A stretch of 64,000 nucleotides of DNA, taken from positions 2,976,499 through 3,040,498 of the forward strand of contig NZ_CP039456.1 of the NCBI RefSeq assembly GCF_006974145.1. The letters run 5' to 3'. Each line of letters opens with the position of its first letter. Within the stretch, counting starts at the first letter, position 1. Shown one piece after another: positions 14,817 to 54,459 of this stretch. The notes under the pieces were generated by a model. That model had not been told where the DNA came from. It searched no databases and saw nothing but the letters and a program-made list of their open reading frames with translations. The translations under genes and the position numbers were made by a program. The DNA comes from Changchengzhania lutea. Lineage in GTDB: Bacteria; Bacteroidota; Bacteroidia; Flavobacteriales; Flavobacteriaceae.

Positions 14817-15728
14817 ATGAAAAAATTCTCTATAATTATTACTACAAAGGATAGAATTAAAGACTTGTCTTTAACCCTAAATAAAATAAAACACTTATTT
14901 GATAGGGTGGATGTGGAGTGTATTATTTGTGATGATGGATCAAACGATGGCACGTCTAAATATATTAATGAGCACTGGCCAAATATTTTATTAATACAGC
15001 ATCAAAAATCTATTGGATTAATAGCATGTAGAAATAAGTTGCTAAATTTAACTAAAGCAAAATATGCTATAACCTTAGATGATGATGCACATTTTATTAT
15101 TGAAAATCCTTTAGGAATAATAGAATCTTATTTTAATAGCAATTTACGGTGTGGTGCATTGGCATTTAGATTATATTGGGGTAAGCTACCACCAAAAAGT
15201 ACTGATTCTAATGATATTTCAGAACGCGTTAGAAGTTTTGTAGGTTGTGGTCATGTGTGGAATATGGTAGCTTGGAAATCCATTCCTAATTATCCCGAAT
15301 GGTTTGTGTTTTATGGAGAGGAAGAATTTGCATCATACCAGTTGTTTAAAAATAATTGGGAAATACATTACCTTCCTGCGGTTTTGGTTAACCATCGCGT
15401 GAATATAAAAGAACGTAAAAAGAATAAGGATTATAGAATACGTTTAAGACGATCTTTAAGGTCTGGCTGGTATCTTTATTTTTTATTCTATCCATATAAT
15501 ACCATTCCAAGACGATTTTTTTACACCTTATGGATTCAAATAAAAACTAAAGTGTTTAAAGGGGACTTCAAAGCCTTAATGGCAATTTTACAAGCATTGG
15601 CAGATGTAGTGATTAACTTCCCGCGCTTAAATAAAAATGCCAATAGATTATCAAAAAAAGAGTTTACTGAGTATTTAAAACTTGAAGAAACAAAGTTATA
15701 TTGGACTCCAAAAGATGAACTCGTTTAA
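14817..15728 (+). CDS. Glycosyltransferase family 2
   Basis: A 303-residue GT2 protein: FSIIITTKDRIKDLSLTL, ICDDGSNDGTSKY, the metal site ITLDDDAHF (about 81-89) and a late VFYGEEEFASYQL motif. Its last codons and stop (…Glu-Leu-Val-TAA) are supplied by the 160-bp inverted-repeat element that starts at 15717. Without the element, and with one copy of the flanking GAT, the frame would end …Asp-Leu-TAA. The insertion therefore only altered the last residues and should not harm function. Confidence 0.88.
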   Translation: MKKFSIIITTKDRIKDLSLTLNKIKHLFDRVDVECIICDDGSNDGTSKYINEHWPNILLIQHQKSIGLIACRNKLLNLTKAKYAITLDDDAHFIIENPLGIIESYFNSNLRCGALAFRLYWGKLPPKSTDSNDISERVRSFVGCGHVWNMVAWKSIPNYPEWFVFYGEEEFASYQLFKNNWEIHYLPAVLVNHRVNIKERKKNKDYRIRLRRSLRSGWYLYFLFYPYNTIPRRFFYTLWIQIKTKVFKGDFKALMAILQALADVVINFPRLNKNANRLSKKEFTEYLKLEETKLYWTPKDELV

Positions 15729-15876
15729 ACTTTTTGTTTTTAACCGAAAATGAGTTAAAATTTGTTTAGATAAGGCACTTTTTGCAAGGCATTACAGCGT
15801 TACGCATAAGAAAAGTAACGAAATATGGGCAAATTTCAGCCATTTTTTAGGAAATAGAAAAAGTTTAAACGAGTTC
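15717..15876. mobile_element. 160-bp MITE-like element with 19-bp inverted repeats (copy 1)
   Basis: The 19-bp arms GAACTCGTTTAAACTTTTT (15717-15735) and its exact reverse complement (15858-15876) bound a 122-bp interior without a plausible ORF. The element is flanked by the direct repeat GAT (15714-15716 and 15877-15879), consistent with a 3-bp target duplication. The interior, reverse-complemented, matches copy 3 (53725-53885) closely by eye, and copy 2 (35494-35653) more weakly. It begins inside the end of a GT2 gene and ends 30 nt before a methyltransferase start. There is no transposase, so it would move in trans or act as a structured RNA. Confidence 0.8.
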
Positions 15877-15906
15877 GATTTATAAATTTATGGGCACTAA
15901 GTAAAA

Positions 15907-16557
15907 TTGAATATAGATATCAATACATATAAGAATAGAGGTGGTTTTGCAAAAGCCATGTTGGATAAATATATCCCGCACGCACCAAATAAAACTGTTA
16001 GTGATATTGGTGCTGGATTTGGGCACATGCGTAAAGACATTGAAAACGTAAACGCTAAGTGGCAACCTTTCGATTTCATTAAAAAAATGGATGAAACCAT
16101 TATCTGGAATTTAAATAATCCTGCACCAACAACGGCTGATAAAGCAGGAATAGTTATACTTTTAGAAGTTTTAGAGCATCTTGATAATCCGCTTTTAGGC
16201 ATACAAAATATTTCAAATCATATAGAAAAAGGGGGCGTTTTAATTTTGAGTACCCCAAATCCGCAGTCTAGTAAAAATACATTAAGTTTGTTTTTAAGAG
16301 GGTCGCTTTACGCGTTTCAAAAAAAGCACATTAAAGAAAATCATGTTTTCACGCCATGGAAACATGTAGTTTGCGAATTTTTAAATCGAAGTGGTTTTGA
16401 GATTTTAGAATATGCTATTGTAGATATGCAATATAAAGATAAAAAAAGTACCTCTTTAAAAGATTGGTTTAAGTCTAAAATAGAAGCATACATAGAATAT
16501 AGAAATCCATTTGCAAAAGGGATGAGTTACGGTATAGTAGCAAGAAAGATAAAATAA
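15907..16557 (+). CDS. Class I SAM-dependent methyltransferase
   Basis: The core shows SAM motif I as VSDIGAGFGHMRKD (about 34-47), then IVILLEVLEHLDNPLLGI and IEKGGVLILSTPNPQ. These are typical of Methyltransf_23/11 enzymes, and residues between motifs suggest a small-molecule or sugar acceptor. The start appears to be TTG 15907; a stop codon lies three codons upstream in frame and the first in-frame ATG (15961) would remove the N-terminal strand. It overlaps neuB by 1 nt and lies just after the inserted 160-bp element. Confidence 0.82.
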   Translation: MNIDINTYKNRGGFAKAMLDKYIPHAPNKTVSDIGAGFGHMRKDIENVNAKWQPFDFIKKMDETIIWNLNNPAPTTADKAGIVILLEVLEHLDNPLLGIQNISNHIEKGGVLILSTPNPQSSKNTLSLFLRGSLYAFQKKHIKENHVFTPWKHVVCEFLNRSGFEILEYAIVDMQYKDKKSTSLKDWFKSKIEAYIEYRNPFAKGMSYGIVARKIK

Positions 16558-32926: not shown

Positions 32927-34318
32927 ATGTCTAATTCGAGTATCCATTTTAATATTTCTGAACGCAAAATTTTACTCAGGATAATAGATATTCTATCTAT
33001 ACTGTTCGTGTTATACTTTGTAAGTAACACGTTCAATTTTGATTATTTTACCATAACCAAAGAGAATTGGAGATGGGTTTTTGTTCTAATAATATATATA
33101 AGCATATTCGGAACTATTTTTGAACTTTACGATTTGCAAAAATCCAGTAAAATAGATAAAACATATGCCAACATAGTACTTGCTGTTTCTGTTACTGTGC
33201 TATTTTATTTTTTAACACCGTATTTTACACCGCTATTACCAGATAATCGTTTACAAATATTATACTTTTATTTTTCTATAATGTTTGCATTGTTTGGTTG
33301 GCGGTCCGCATATATCACATTTATTGTGTCCCCACGATTTTTTAAAAAAGTGCTTATAGTTGGAGAAACGTCTAATATCGATGTCATTTTGGAGGCTTTC
33401 AAAGAATCTGATCCTAATTATAAAATTGTTGGTTTTATAAATTGTGAAATCGAAAACCAAGGGCGTCTTCAATTTGAAGCTATTAAGGAGTATAAACCTA
33501 GTGAGATTTATAAAGTTATTGCCGACGAACATATCTCTGAAATAATAGTAGCCAGTTATAATTCTGATATCATTACACCAAAAATAAATGGTATGCTTAT
33601 TAAATTATTAGAAGAAGGTTTTCCCATTAAGGAATATACACAAGTGTTTGAGGACATGACACAACGTGTCCCTATACAATTTATTGGAAAGGATTTTTAC
33701 AAGTATTTTCCATTTAGCCGAAACAATAAAAATAAACTGTATCAATTCTTTCATCGCTTACTGGATATTGCTATTTCTATTATAGGTATTATCTCTGGTA
33801 TCGTTGTATTGCCTTTATTTTTTTTAGGTAATGTTATAGGAAATAGAGGGGATTTATTATATTTTCAGGATAGAATTGGAAAGAACGGAAAAGTTTTTAA
33901 GATGATTAAGTACCGTACAATGATCAAAAATGCGGAATCTTCTGGAGTAGTGTGGGCAAAGAAAAATGATAACAGAATAACCCCTTTCGGAAAATTTTTA
34001 AGACATTCAAGACTCGATGAAATACCACAATTCATAAATATCTTGATAGGAGATATGAGCATCATTGGCCCACGGCCAGAGCGCCCTCATTTTGTTAAAC
34101 AGTTGTCGCAATTGCTGCCATTTTATGAAACGCGACATATTATCAAACCTGGTCTAACGGGTTGGGCTCAGGTTAAAACACGTTACGGCTCATCTGTGGA
34201 TGACAGCTTGTTAAAATTACAGTATGATTTGTATTACATAAAATACCGCAGTTTCTTTTTGGATGCTAATATTATTATAAAAACATTAAGCACTATAATT
34301 TTCTATAGGGGTCAATAA
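32927..34318 (+). CDS. Polyprenyl glycosylphosphotransferase (WbaP/WcaJ-like initiating transferase)
   Basis: This membrane enzyme transfers a sugar-1-phosphate from a nucleotide sugar to undecaprenyl phosphate, starting assembly of each glycan. The N-terminus has about four helices and a CoA-binding-like region (KVLIVGETSNIDVI). The C-terminal catalytic domain shows LPLFFLGNVIGNRGDLLYFQ, KMIKYRTMIKNAE, SRLDEIPQFINILIGDMSII and GPRPERPHFV, then KPGLTGWAQVK. As the last plus-strand gene it closes the locus; its stop overlaps the convergent Lnb-like gene by 7 nt. A TATCTTTA sequence in the 59-nt upstream gap is one base off the promoter consensus. Confidence 0.93.
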   Translation: MSNSSIHFNISERKILLRIIDILSILFVLYFVSNTFNFDYFTITKENWRWVFVLIIYISIFGTIFELYDLQKSSKIDKTYANIVLAVSVTVLFYFLTPYFTPLLPDNRLQILYFYFSIMFALFGWRSAYITFIVSPRFFKKVLIVGETSNIDVILEAFKESDPNYKIVGFINCEIENQGRLQFEAIKEYKPSEIYKVIADEHISEIIVASYNSDIITPKINGMLIKLLEEGFPIKEYTQVFEDMTQRVPIQFIGKDFYKYFPFSRNNKNKLYQFFHRLLDIAISIIGIISGIVVLPLFFLGNVIGNRGDLLYFQDRIGKNGKVFKMIKYRTMIKNAESSGVVWAKKNDNRITPFGKFLRHSRLDEIPQFINILIGDMSIIGPRPERPHFVKQLSQLLPFYETRHIIKPGLTGWAQVKTRYGSSVDDSLLKLQYDLYYIKYRSFFLDANIIIKTLSTIIFYRGQ

Positions 34319-35490
34319 GTTTTTTTAAAATGTTTGATTAGAAATAGGTAACGCAAGAATAAAGCTATAAGTAATGGCATTAACCCTATAGCAAATACCT
34401 GTACCCCTATTATCCAATGCAATGTTAACAGACATAATAAAATAACAAGAAACTTTACATAATTTATAAACCAAGCTTTAGCCTGTTTTTTATACACTTG
34501 ACCTACCATCAAAATATTTAATGCGCAGGCCCATAGCAGATTATAATTCTGGTGCGTGGCAGTATGATCGGTAGCAAACCACAATAATAATATAATCACA
34601 CCAACTATACCTGTTATAGCGAATAGTGTCACATCTAACCAAATTTGTCTTGTGTTATTCTTGTTATCTTTATACGTCAACCATATAATAATGGCGCCTA
34701 TTATACCCAATATAAATAGCGGACTTGTTAAAAAGTTTGATGGCTTAGCGATTTCTTTTTGCGTGAATAAAATTTTTGTGTCTTTCACCAGAGCCTTATT
34801 GTTTATTTGAGCTGAGTCAAAGAATGTATAGATATTCTCGGGTAAAAACATGTGTTGTTCTGGTGTGGCTGCTCGATCAATTACAGATCCCAAAGCTAAA
34901 TCGATGCCAAAACTTCCCCATGAATTTTTGTTGAGATTATTTTGAATTAATGTTCTAAAGGTTTCAGGCTTATAATCTTTTGGTAGATTGAATGTAAGGT
35001 CGCCATCTATCGCTTTATTAGTAACATCCTTTATTTTAGTCGCGCAATTGTCATAAAAAAAGTCATATAAATAGGCTCTGTTTTCAGGTTTGTAGTTGTT
35101 AATTAGAAAATTATACAAGCTCTGCTTTTCATCCTGTGTAAGATTTAGAACTTGTTCTGTGATGCTTCTGTTATAGTAAACATAGGATTGGTAAAATTGA
35201 TTAAATTCTGTTCTGTCAATCAAATAGTTAAGCTTGCCTTGGGCAAATTTTAAATAGAAGTTTGGTGTATCAAAATCGTATTTGCCGTATCCATAAGTCA
35301 CGTCAATCCTGTTTGAACGATCCTTAATTCTATAGGCATTATGGCCAAAGGCATCGTTTAATGAGACACCTGGCTCAATAGTTAGGACACTTATTTCGGC
35401 ATCATTCGAAAGTATTTGACCTTGTGCATATATTGAAATTGAAACAAATAGGAATACAAAGTAGAATAATGATTGTCGCATAAAGGCCAT
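34312..35490 (-). CDS. DUF4105 / Lnb-like envelope protein
   Basis: The chain begins with a signal peptide (MRQSLFYFVFLFVSISIYAQ), followed by a periplasmic DUF4105 domain with LNDAFGHNAYRI and DFFYDNCATKIKD, holding the conserved His and Cys, and then about five membrane helices in the last 130 residues. DUF4105 is now linked to Lnb, a Bacteroidota lipoprotein N-acyltransferase; I rely on memory for that link. The frame stays open upstream to 35655, but that part is encoded by an inserted 160-bp element, so I use ATG 35490 (35481 also fits). It lies downstream of porQ and was probably co-transcribed. Confidence 0.8.
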   Translation of the reverse strand: MAFMRQSLFYFVFLFVSISIYAQGQILSNDAEISVLTIEPGVSLNDAFGHNAYRIKDRSNRIDVTYGYGKYDFDTPNFYLKFAQGKLNYLIDRTEFNQFYQSYVYYNRSITEQVLNLTQDEKQSLYNFLINNYKPENRAYLYDFFYDNCATKIKDVTNKAIDGDLTFNLPKDYKPETFRTLIQNNLNKNSWGSFGIDLALGSVIDRAATPEQHMFLPENIYTFFDSAQINNKALVKDTKILFTQKEIAKPSNFLTSPLFILGIIGAIIIWLTYKDNKNNTRQIWLDVTLFAITGIVGVIILLLWFATDHTATHQNYNLLWACALNILMVGQVYKKQAKAWFINYVKFLVILLCLLTLHWIIGVQVFAIGLMPLLIALFLRYLFLIKHFKKTY

Positions 35491-35493
35491 ATT

Positions 35494-35653
35494 GAACTCG
35501 TTTAAACTTTTTGGATTGAGGCGAAAATTAGCCATTTTGTAACCAGTTGAAGGCTTTTTTGAGTTGCATAGCATCGCTACGGAACGAAAAAAAAACAAAA
35601 AAAGAGTGCAAAAGGACAGTTTTTTAGCTAATTTAAAAAGTTTAAATGAGTTC
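35494..35653. mobile_element. 160-bp MITE-like element with 19-bp inverted repeats (copy 2)
   Basis: Arms GAACTCGTTTAAACTTTTT (35494-35512) and AAAAAGTTTAAATGAGTTC (35635-35653) pair with one mismatch. The flanks are a direct ATT (35491-35493 and 35654-35656). The interior shares only islands with copies 1 and 3, for example a GTAGCGATGCTATGC block on the minus strand that is GTAGCCATGCTATGC in copy 3. It lies between the porQ stop and the Lnb-like start. Excision with one ATT would leave stop and start 1 nt apart. Confidence 0.78.
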
Positions 35654-35654
35654 A

Positions 35655-36752
35655 TTATCTAAAGATACTAAAATTGAGTTTCAATGAAAATACATTGGAA
35701 TACAAAGCAATGCTTTGATCGCCTATATCTGTAAAGGCGTAATCTATTTGAATCCCGTTATATTTGAAGCCAACGCCAAAACTAGGTTGAAAACTTAACT
35801 GCTCGGAGTTATCAAATTGTCTTTCATTTTGAAAATTACCAACCCCAGCTCTTAAATAGACCATATCAATATAACCAAATTCTAAACCCAAGGCGGGATT
35901 AATACTTGCAAAAGAAGATGAGATGACATCGTTATTTTCTTCAAAGCGGACATTTACATTGGCGGCGGCCAGTAAGGTATAATCATAGTGGAAGGTCATT
36001 AATTTAGACACTCCAATTTGTAATTTAGGTATCGTAATTTCTGTAGTTTCTGGTAATTCTTGGTTTTGACCTTCAACAGCATCTTGAATGGTCTTAAATT
36101 CATCTTCATTAATACTCCAAGAATTGTAGGTGGTTGTAATATCACGTGCCATAACGCCAAACTTCCAATCGTTATCAGTTTCAAATTGAATGCCTACATC
36201 TAAACCAAAACCCCAAGAAGAAGCAAAATTGCCAATAATTCTTCGAATCACTTTAGCATTCACTCCATAATTCAGACCTTGAATTGGCAATTTTCTGGCA
36301 TAGGAAAAGGTGAGACCATAATCGGCGGTTGAAAAAAGACTGATCCGGTCATAGTTTATATTGCCCTGTTCATCAATAAGCTGCGTAGTATTTAGAATAT
36401 CATCCACAGCAAACCTAATAAGAGACAGACCTACCGCACTTCTATCGTCCAATGGCATGGCAAAAGCGGCATAATCATAATTGGCAATATTGGCAAAGTA
36501 ACTGGAATGCATTAAAGCGAGCTGATTATCTTCAAGATTGGTCAGTCCTGCGGGATTCCAATATCCAGAATTAACGTCGGCCGAATGCGAAGTCACCGCG
36601 CTACTCATCCCCAGTGCAGCAGCGTCTACACCAATATTCATAAACTCATTAGAATACTTTCTAACCGTTTGTGAAAATAATGAGACCGATAAAACACAAA
36701 ATAATGTGGTTATGTAAGGTTTCAATCGCAATTTTTTTACAAATATGCACAT
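35655..36752 (-). CDS. porQ: PorV/PorQ family outer-membrane protein
   Basis: A 365-residue beta-barrel-like protein with an N-terminal signal region ending near SLFSQT and the family opening YSNEFMNIGVDAAALGMSSA, then WNPAGLTNL (about 66-74). PorV and PorQ take part in type IX secretion; PorV shuttles cargo to the sortase and PorQ's part is less clear. The RAGVGNFQNERQ and FGVGFKYNGIQIDYAF segments near the end are typical FadL-like strands. Within the PorV/PorQ family the Q assignment is my best judgement. A T9SS cargo protein at 46794 fits its presence. Confidence 0.82.
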   Translation of the reverse strand: MCIFVKKLRLKPYITTLFCVLSVSLFSQTVRKYSNEFMNIGVDAAALGMSSAVTSHSADVNSGYWNPAGLTNLEDNQLALMHSSYFANIANYDYAAFAMPLDDRSAVGLSLIRFAVDDILNTTQLIDEQGNINYDRISLFSTADYGLTFSYARKLPIQGLNYGVNAKVIRRIIGNFASSWGFGLDVGIQFETDNDWKFGVMARDITTTYNSWSINEDEFKTIQDAVEGQNQELPETTEITIPKLQIGVSKLMTFHYDYTLLAAANVNVRFEENNDVISSSFASINPALGLEFGYIDMVYLRAGVGNFQNERQFDNSEQLSFQPSFGVGFKYNGIQIDYAFTDIGDQSIALYSNVFSLKLNFSIFR

Positions 36753-52774: not shown

Positions 52775-53719
52775 ATGCTAAACAGAAGACATATACGTGT
52801 AAAAGTCATGCAAACCATATATGCCTATAAAGGCAGTGAAAGCGATGATTTTAGTAAAGATCAAAAATTCCTACTGTTCAGTATAGATAACATGTACAAC
52901 CTGTACCTTCTGTTGGTGTCGCTCTTGAGTGAAGTTCAAAAAAGAGCCGAAGCCGATTTACAAAAAAAACAAAAGAAACATTTAGCAACCTCTGAAGATA
53001 AAGATCCAAACAGGAAATTTGTTAATAATGAGTTGTTATTACTGTTAAAAGAAAACCTTCCACTTAAAGATCATTTAGAAGCACATAAAATCACCAATTG
53101 GGATTTAGATGCTGAATATGTTGATATCATTTTTAAAGCCATCACTTCAAGCGAATTGTATAAAGACTATATGCAGACCAGAGTTTCAGGGTTTAGGGAA
53201 GACAAAGATTTTATTGTAGATATTTTTAAGGAAATTATAGCGCCCAATGAAAAGCTTTACGAGTATATGGAAGATAAAAACCTAACTTGGTTAGACGACC
53301 TTCCTACAGTAAATACAACTATCTTGAAGTTGTTGCGTAAAGTGAAACCAAGTTCATCAGAAAATCATTTTATACCGAAGCTTTATAAAGACGCGGAAGA
53401 TAAACAGTTTGCAATAGACTTATTTAAAAAAACACTTCTGAATCAAACGACATTAAATAGTGAGATTGCGCTTAAAACCCAAAACTGGGATTCAGATCGT
53501 ATTGCCGATGTGGATTTTGCTTTACTGCAAATGGCTATTTGCGAATTGAAAAATTTCCCGTCTATACCAGTTAAAGTCACCATGAACGAATACTTAGAGA
53601 TCGCCAAAGAATATTCAACCCCTAAAAGCAGCATTTTCATAAATGGTATTTTAGATAAGTTGGTTAAGGAATATCAGGAAAGTGGTGATTTGAAAAAAGT
53701 GGGTCGTGGCTTGCTTTAA
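52775..53719 (+). CDS. nusB: Transcription antitermination factor NusB, long form
   Basis: The 314 residues begin LNRRHIRVKVMQTIYAYKGS, as NusB does. The NusB core is completed in the C-terminal 110 residues (DRIADVDFALLQMAICELK, VKVTMNEYLEIAKEYSTPKS, FINGILDKLVKEY). About 150 residues lie between these parts, so the protein is twice the usual 140-residue length; this long form is normal in Bacteroidota. NusB with NusE binds boxA RNA and supports rRNA transcription. A 160-bp repeat element is inserted 5 nt after its stop. Confidence 0.92.
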   Translation: MLNRRHIRVKVMQTIYAYKGSESDDFSKDQKFLLFSIDNMYNLYLLLVSLLSEVQKRAEADLQKKQKKHLATSEDKDPNRKFVNNELLLLLKENLPLKDHLEAHKITNWDLDAEYVDIIFKAITSSELYKDYMQTRVSGFREDKDFIVDIFKEIIAPNEKLYEYMEDKNLTWLDDLPTVNTTILKLLRKVKPSSSENHFIPKLYKDAEDKQFAIDLFKKTLLNQTTLNSEIALKTQNWDSDRIADVDFALLQMAICELKNFPSIPVKVTMNEYLEIAKEYSTPKSSIFINGILDKLVKEYQESGDLKKVGRGLL

Positions 53720-53724
53720 TTTTT

Positions 53725-53885
53725 GAACTCATCTTGGTTTTTTTCTATTTCCTAAAAAGCGGCTGTAATTTGCCCATATTTCGTTACTTTTATTATGTGT
53801 AGCCATGCTATGCTTTTCAAAAAGTGCCTCATCTGGACAAATTTCATCTCATTTTCGGTTAAAAACAAAAAACCAAGATGAGTTC
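53725..53885. mobile_element. 161-bp MITE-like element with 19-bp inverted repeats (copy 3)
   Basis: Arms GAACTCATCTTGGTTTTTT (53725-53743) and its exact reverse complement (53867-53885) are flanked by a direct TTT (53722-53724 and 53886-53888). The arm sequence after GAACTC differs from copies 1 and 2, but self-complementarity is kept. The interior is nearly the reverse complement of the copy 1 interior (shared CTATTTCCTAAAAA, TTTGCCCATATTTCGTTAC, CAAAAAGTGCC, CTCATTTTCGGTTAAAAAC). It starts 5 nt after the nusB stop. Confidence 0.8.
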
Positions 53886-53964
53886 TTTATTAAGAGTTAA
53901 GTAAAAAGTTTTTAATCGATTAAATAATTCTTACTTTTATCCCCAAATTATAAAATTACATATT

Positions 53965-54459
53965 GTGAAAAAATTAATATTAGCATTAAGTGCACTGTGT
54001 TTAGTGGCATTTACCTCCTGTAAGGAGGACGCATCAAAAAAGATTGATGAAAATAATGTAGCTGAAGCTGCTGAAAGGGACGCAAGTTCTTCTGAGTTTC
54101 CAATTATAACGTTTGACAAACAGGTTCATGATTTTGGCGAAATTGAAGCCAAGACTCCAGTTGAAACGGTATTTAAATATACCAACACTGGTGATGCACC
54201 TTTAGTTATTACAGATATTAAAAGTTCATGTGGTTGTACGGTACCACAAGATTGGAGTAGAGAGCCTTTAGCCGCTGGAGAATCTGGACAATTTACTGTT
54301 AAGTTTAATGGAAGTGGTGCTAACAAAGTATCTAAAAGCATTACGGTTACAGCAAATACAGAAAAAGGAACAGAAGTAGTAAAAATTACGGCATTCGTAA
54401 AGGCAGACCCTAATGCGAAAGCAAAAGGAATTAGTGCTGCTGCAAACCCTGTACAATAA
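53965..54459 (+). CDS. DUF1573 domain lipoprotein
   Basis: The 164-residue protein has a lipoprotein signal (KKLILALSALCLVAFTSC, with Cys19 as the lipid site) and a DUF1573 domain: HDFGEIEAKTPVETVFKYTN, VITDIKSSCGCTVPQDW, AGESGQFTVKFN. The Ig-like domain has the conserved CGCT motif. Function of the family is unknown. The start is GTG 53965; it is followed by yajC after 8 nt, the usual pairing in this group. TACTTTTA upstream is one base off the -7 consensus. Confidence 0.88.
   Translation: MKKLILALSALCLVAFTSCKEDASKKIDENNVAEAAERDASSSEFPIITFDKQVHDFGEIEAKTPVETVFKYTNTGDAPLVITDIKSSCGCTVPQDWSREPLAAGESGQFTVKFNGSGANKVSKSITVTANTEKGTEVVKITAFVKADPNAKAKGISAAANPVQ

Follow-up and report, generated by a model that had tools for sequence, protein, structure and literature searches.

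Within a 64-kb window of the Changchengzhania lutea genome (the whole stretch of 64,000 nucleotides that we analysed, numbered from its first letter), three copies of a short inverted-repeat element each lie at a stop codon, raising the question of whether such elements are mobile sequences, RNAs kept for their fold, or both. A sequence-only reading of the window had described lengths of 160, 160 and 161 bp, GAACTC/GAGTTC ends and exact 3-bp flanks (GAT, ATT and TTT), all of which we recovered as described, and had offered two explanations: a non-autonomous transposable element with a preference for 3' gene ends, or a selected terminator-like RNA.

Copy 1 (15717..15876, sense strand plus) belongs to lineage A, has the GTTTAAAC end type and is bordered by the target duplication GAT (left 15714..15716, right 15877-15879). 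It is co-directional with the genes on either side, a Glycos_transf_2 gene (14817..15728, plus strand) and a Methyltransf_23 gene (15958..16557, plus strand), and it sits inside the last codons of the former, for which it provides the stop codon (GAT GAA CTC GTT TAA). Copy 2 (35494..35653, sense strand plus), a member of lineage B bordered by ATT (35491..35493 and 35654-35656), makes up the entire gap between the TAA of one minus-strand gene (35655..36641; a weak PorV match, under the Pfam cut-off) and the probable ATG (35490-35488) of the next, a Lnb_N, 5TMH_Lnb gene (34312..35490, minus strand) whose mechanical open reading frame extends to 35655, through the element; both genes run opposite to the copy. 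Copy 3 (53725..53885, sense strand minus), again of lineage A, is bordered by TTT (53722..53724 and 53886-53888), begins 5 nt past a TAA and carries an ATCTTGG variant in each arm. It lies between a NusB family gene (52808..53719, plus strand) and a DUF1573 gene (53965..54459, plus strand) that run the opposite way, so that copy 1 is the only one of the three to be co-directional with its neighbours. The terminal repeat is perfect over 19 bp in copies 1 and 3, and in copy 2 the first mismatch follows after 6 bp. Copies 1 and 3, both placed in lineage A by alignment, have a common interior in opposite orientation, as had been noticed from the window; copy 2 is 68% identical to copy 1 and represents a related but distinct lineage.

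The genome, a single contig of 4.13 Mb in which the window occupies 2976499-3040498, holds many more such elements. Searches with copy 1 and copy 2 returned 48 matches each, in overlapping lists in which some entries are the two strands of one place, and the spaced pattern GAACTC-N(140-160)-GAGTTC occurs at 22 places, as compared to 2 for a reversed control; of the 22, the one at 968702 falls outside the family. From the loci found by similarity and by end pattern, with most truncated copies left out, we catalogued 46 two-ended copies, mostly 159-162 bp long with extremes of 114 and 174 bp. Alignment divides them into lineage A (23 copies, including window copies 1 and 3), lineage B (12, including window copy 2) and lineage C (11).

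Flanking 3-mers, empty sites and a transposase with matching ends, the comparisons that the sequence-only reading had suggested, all speak for a mobile, non-autonomous element. Firstly, a 3-bp flanking match is present at 116 of 182 distinct sites (46 in this genome and 136 in others), as compared to 21.3 expected when the flanks of different copies are paired; an earlier 139-copy set held some duplicates, and the count was redone on the distinct sites. A 4-bp match occurs at only 4 of the 182 (4.2 expected), so the size of the duplication is fixed at 3 bp. The C. lutea genome by itself has the duplication in 33 of its 46 copies, with 5-6 expected from flanks of different copies, and the commonest target triplets in the 139-copy set were ATT, AAT, TAT and ATA. 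Copy 2 has an exact match over its 160 bp at G000:C1:4058086 in the same genome, a copy with different flanks and a different duplication. Secondly, at the one locus covered by our empty-site comparison, a gene pair that holds a copy in the genome G419 is also found in two congeners, G019 and G270, where the gap between the matched parts measures 31 and 36 bp as compared to 197 bp in G419, and the joined flanks align across the site.

Thirdly, five longer elements of the C. lutea genome, 913-929 bp in length, carry the 19-bp ends of the MITEs, and four of these encode an intact transposase (92-100% identity to the query). The fifth, at 3906769, is broken by stops and has the ATCTTGAC end type; a more distant broken relative lies at 2034540-2035353. 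The transposase, that of the 928-bp partner element, scores 119.8 bits against NF033580 (transpos_IS5_3; cut-off 110) and exceeds the Pfam cut-offs of DUF4096, DDE_Tnp_1, DDE_Tnp_4 and DDE_Tnp_1_2, and a search for related solved structures found none. A 3-bp flanking match accompanies three of the five longer elements; some IS5 subgroups make duplications of 2-4 bp. The short elements are thus like IS5-family insertion sequences (NF033580; DUF4096 with DDE_Tnp_1) in their 19-bp ends and unlike them in having no room for a transposase: 150 of the 182 distinct-site copies are 159-161 bp long, at most 53 codons. Given target duplications of 3 bp, an empty site, and longer IS5-family elements whose 19-bp ends they share, the elements are a MITE family, and this mobile part of the account is secure.

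Movement in trans, by IS5-family transposases that recognise the common 19-bp ends, is the most likely means of spread, judging from the sequences of the two kinds of element; the MITEs, non-autonomous relatives of the ~913-929 bp elements, duplicate 3 A+T-rich bp on insertion. Beyond the ends, the body of lineage A resembles the insertion sequence in one short stretch only, 18-19 bases of the 3' arm that are like the left end of the insertion sequence at a level barely above shuffled controls. Transposase relatives at E<=1e-40 are found in 11 of 299 family genomes, this one included, several of them with similar ends about 900 bp apart. At E<=1e-15, none was found in 9 of the 11 MITE-bearing genomes searched. 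These nine include G419, a single contig where one copy shares 93-97% identity with most of the others; it has no pair of ends about 900 bp apart, and it holds five solo ends without a transposase. At the left end of one insertion sequence (L071, ~530-590), an inverted repeat GGGTTGC/GCAACCC precedes the start of the transposase and might shield the transposase from outside transcripts; the transposase ends near the right terminal repeat. A more distant family genome (L104 in G274) has a 44%-identical transposase within an element of ~900 bp whose ends differ (AAACCTGTYTAAACTTTT), and related elements with other end sequences therefore exist.

The ends of the MITEs come in several types, GTTTAAAC, ATCTTGAC and ATTTAGAC among them, with GAACTC or GAAGTG at the tips, and many copies have one variant at both ends. 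Ends and interiors are mixed: lineage A occurs with GTTTAAAC or ATCTTGAC ends (the latter in most C. lutea copies of this lineage), lineage B with GTTTAAAC or ATC-type ends, and a B-like set in G419 with ATTTAGAC ends. The 19-bp arms are identical in 49 of 139 copies, in nine versions, and terminal variants are often arm-matched; AATC, CCC and ATCTTGG ends appear in single copies and are matched on both arms. Short derivatives of ~30-113 bp, in which the two ends survive but the middle is largely or wholly missing, look like products of a deletion between the arms of the hairpin; they occur both in C. lutea (L077, G000:C1:2234884-2234933; L080, from 3943065; L084, from 1689975) and in G419 (C1, 52287-52399, 1159610-1159695 and 1315358-1315431). 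At one place in C. lutea a lineage A copy (G000:C1:2436166-2436339), with a 14-bp insert in its 5' arm, lies about 25 bp from a lineage B copy (2436364-2436523).

The search of this and related genomes that had been suggested from the window thus gave 46 copies at home, and it extended lineage A (E<=1e-6) to 45 of 397 genomes and 35 of 237 genera of the family, C. lutea included; copy numbers in the many-genome searches are lower bounds, because few candidates were scored per genome (2 in the lineage A family search, 14 in another). An interior 23-mer was present in at least 113 stretches of a named genome collection, and the host genera among the matches listed include Flavivirga, Aquimarina, Lacinutrix, Algibacter, Wocania, Tenacibaculum, Maribacter, Dokdonia, Polaribacter, Hyunsoonleella and Aestuariivivens. 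Among the 80 collection loci listed, 15 were dropped for not having both ends within 4 mismatches, leaving 65 two-ended copies, of which 41 are exactly 160 bp long and 11 are 159 or 161 bp. We also dropped 6 of 34 loci from relatives and 17 flank duplicates, and took as near full-length 28 of 31 matches in G419, 25 of 37 in G095 and 7 of 12 in G006. The 31 lineage A matches of G419:C1 include many that are near-identical. Plasmid and phage collections contained no match to the element.

All three window copies fold over their full length, the sense strand reaching -48 to -50 kcal/mol, with z between -6.0 and -7.4 relative to 100 dinucleotide shuffles. Covariation was observed directly in lineage A: among 72 non-redundant copies, changes on both sides of a pair affect 14 of the 33 interior pairs, in 133 cells as compared to 40.1 when 3' halves are exchanged between copies, and 9 of the 16 terminal pairs, in 49 cells as compared to 9.8; with the partner shifted by 1-3 columns, the interior count is never above 33 cells. 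Interior covariation is weak in lineage B (3 cells vs 2.5) and in lineage C (8 vs 2.2, with slid controls reaching 7). The strand with the central GCATAGC-ATC-GCTACGG has a more stable fold than its complement in 142 of 147 lineage A copies, which by their common ancestry are not 147 independent results, as well as in 11 of 12 lineage B copies, 10 of 11 lineage C copies and all six B-like copies of G419. Composition accounts for about half or more of the strand gap in folding energy of the window copies, the shuffles of the two strands differing too.

The interior of lineage A further shows a preference in how its pairs change. Counted on a tree in the full register, interior changes away from Watson-Crick pairing comprise 128 to G-U and 75 to A-C (p=2.4e-4), while in the terminal repeat the counts were 49:43, with no G-U bias; the pair set given by alifold yields 97:55 inside and 44:36 at the ends. 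The register keeps every column pair and was derived from the G-U-permitting structure of the 72 non-redundant copies, which was used in place of the poor structure that alifold returned for 139 lineage A copies including outliers. With G-U forbidden, alifold gave no interior pairs, and the nine pairs common to both strands are all terminal. In 18 mostly mismatched columns of the register, ten changes from Watson-Crick led to A-C and none to G-U, and these conserved mismatched columns stay so, often as purine against purine. Strand-biased damage, in the form of cytosine deamination, was considered as a source of the G-U pairs and is argued against by unpaired columns, where C>T and G>A occur at similar rates per base. 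From these sequence comparisons, the sense-strand hairpin of lineage A appears to be under selection.

Lineage A elements are also oriented with respect to genes. In tandem gaps, 71 run with transcription and 23 against it (p=7e-7), a bias present in short as well as long gaps. The split is 11:5 in C. lutea, 24:9 in the named records, 14:2 in G419, 9:5 in G095, 2:0 in G006 and 11:2 in other relatives. In divergent gaps the element lies closer to the co-directional gene in 27 of 38 cases (p=0.014); in convergent gaps it lies closer to the left gene in 8 of 16. By contrast, lineages B (3:4) and C (1:6) show no such bias, and the six B-like copies of G419 comprise three in the same direction, none in the opposite direction and three outside clear tandem gaps. 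Coding sequence is evenly divided between the strands. Replication direction, taken from third-position GC skew, was rejected as the source of the bias, with orientations divided 15:13 in G419, which has a clear skew, and 9:14 in C. lutea, which has a noisy one.

We consider it probable that these elements are IS5-type MITEs in which the lineage A hairpin has been kept as a transcribed, sense-strand RNA within mRNA. According to this reading, IS5-family transposases would move the MITEs in trans through the common 19-bp ends; the MITEs themselves are spread over many genera of a single family, which the named records identify as Flavobacteriaceae. Lineage A would retain its 160-nt body as a single long foldback in which G-U pairs keep one strand able to fold; this strand lies mostly in the sense direction of neighbouring genes and would be transcribed within mRNA leaders and operon spacers. 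There the hairpin may act on the mRNA, through its processing or stability, or may simply be in the orientation that operons tolerate. Because of the G-U excess and the orientation with transcription, and by analogy with the ERIC and Correia repeats, we infer that the transcribed hairpin matters. A further-reaching version, in which lineage A is a family-wide mobile mRNA module whose fold is selected, whose copies are inserted or retained along transcription and whose presence alters the mRNAs that it joins, is tentative and stands somewhat short of an even chance. In its boldest form, insertion itself would be oriented by the transcription of the target; the youngest copies are indeed as strongly biased as older ones.

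The strongest competitor, which we regard as unlikely although deserving of serious attention, is an ordinary MITE without an RNA role, in which templated copying or selection by the transposase matches the arms and the strand and orientation biases stem from ancestry, composition or insertion. Quasi-palindrome correction is hairpin-templated copying that keeps arms alike, and the AATC, CCC and ATCTTGG variants, matched on both arms in single copies, are what such an account predicts. It is likewise consistent with the lack of orientation bias in lineages B and C, with the compositional part of the strand asymmetry and with the age profile of the bias: grouped by closeness of relatives, youngest first, lineage A copies divide 26:7, 25:5 and 11:7, the youngest being as biased as the others, as an insertion bias predicts. 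However, homogenisation of the arms would not prefer G-U over A-C (128:75), and it would also repair the conserved mismatched columns, yet these persist. Moreover, in divergent gaps orientation goes with whichever gene is nearest (27 of 38), and it does not follow replication.

An improbable variant holds that the insertion complex places lineage A along the transcription of its target, in which case orientation would be silent on RNA function. A bias already visible among the youngest copies (26:7), and one that short and long gaps share, is what this would produce, but the target logo (139 copies; T-rich and A-rich flanks) is symmetric, so the target sequence itself gives no direction, and early selection after insertion would look alike. 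Oriented insertion also leaves the G-U excess unexplained, and we know of no precedent for it in the IS5 family.

Of 158 distinct lineage A sites, 2 lie inside genes and 8 are unclassed edge cases; the remaining 148 fall in 94 tandem, 38 divergent and 16 convergent gaps (64/26/11%). Intergenic bases are distributed among the same classes as 58/26/16% and 61/26/13% in the two genomes sampled (20 stretches of 10 kb per genome; coding ~90%), shares close to those of the sites; lineage A thus avoids genes without seeking gene ends. Within tandem gaps the mean relative position is 0.39 (0 being the stop; p=0.001), and 13 of the 94 sites lie within 5 nt of a stop, as compared to 4.6 expected; 5 of the 94 lie within 5 nt of a start, with start codons approximate because genes were called by a simple codon-usage script. 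For all lineages in the C. lutea genome, the suggested tabulation against stop codons covered 37 tandem or convergent sites, of which 6 are no more than 5 nt from a stop. The proposed preference for 3' gene ends is thus largely not borne out, placement following intergenic space with a residual lean towards stops. That all three window copies lie at or within 5 nt of a stop holds for the window, with the qualification that copy 1 supplies its own, but the pattern is much weaker genome-wide, and its perfect score in the window is mostly a sampling effect, a matter of luck.

An intrinsic terminator module selected at 3' gene ends, although in keeping with the long hairpin, the three window copies at stop codons and the mild excess near stops (13 of 94 vs 4.6), is very unlikely. 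A terminator-like site (a G+C-rich stem followed by a T run) was found nowhere within the three copies; the sole match in the three stretches scanned, at 35369-35386, lies outside copy 2. Nor is there a convergent excess (16 of 148 sites, as compared to 13-16% of intergenic bases), and 38 of the 148 sites lie between divergent genes. Of the terminator-like, selected RNA that had been proposed, the terminator finds no support and a selected RNA in a wider sense is supported for lineage A, by its covariation, its orientation and its excess of G-U. A non-mobile RNA gene family passed on by vertical descent, which the near-constant length of 160 bp and the interior conserved across genera might suggest, is refuted by the 3-bp duplications and the empty site; since identical copies also occupy unrelated sites, the ends are those of an insertion sequence and no Rfam family reached gathering score in the window, it is scarcely credible. 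A known Rfam RNA was also rejected: the 64-kb window gave 0 matches at gathering score, and four loci gave one match (E 0.98), under its gathering score and outside the element.

Several known repeats invite comparison. Our elements are like the Correia/NEMIS elements of Neisseria, which target TA, in being small MITEs, and unlike them in length, host and 3-bp duplication. As presented in the relevant passages of two sources, the terminal repeats of those elements are transcribed and cut by RNase III (PMC10969869; PMC2229807). The ERIC elements of enterobacteria, in the description given in passages of PMC2229807, are intergenic, non-autonomous palindromes of 127 bp that are co-transcribed and have an orientation-dependent effect on mRNA; the likeness lies in an intergenic, palindromic element and, for lineage A, may extend to an effect that depends on orientation, and ERIC is set apart, by description, in length, host and sequence. 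Passages of the same source describe YPAL/RU-2 of Yersinia as intergenic palindromes of ~168 bp with filled and empty sites, duplications of 3 to 26 bp and internal inverted repeats, which are not A+T-rich and may influence upstream mRNA (PMC2229807). The elements described here, by contrast, have terminal repeats, a 3-bp duplication and an A+T-rich sequence, and fall outside the YPAL definition. Pneumococcal BOX, RUP and SPRITE are, as characterised in part of PMC3049150, folded small intergenic repeats over-represented between convergent genes, whereas lineage A has no convergent excess and is oriented with transcription. IS-derived MITEs are on record within Bacteroidota, from one strain of Cardinium (IS982-derived; PMC9769881) and from Porphyromonas gingivalis (PMC4596501); the former belongs with another IS family.

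Accordingly, we do not file the elements as members of the ERIC, Correia or pneumococcal repeats. Text searches of the literature, with ISfinder and most subscription journals outside their scope, found no paper on such an element in Flavobacteriaceae and none containing any of three of its oligonucleotides, in agreement with the sequence-only reading, which knew of no described family with this pattern; an earlier description of the family may exist.

If the probable reading is true, one mobile sequence would have put the same structured RNA into the leaders and operon spacers of many flavobacteria. The natural insertions, similar to one another and numbering in the dozens (one closed genome alone has 31 matches), bear on whether MITE hairpins are passengers or regulators, and the same insertions bear on whether transposition senses the direction of transcription.
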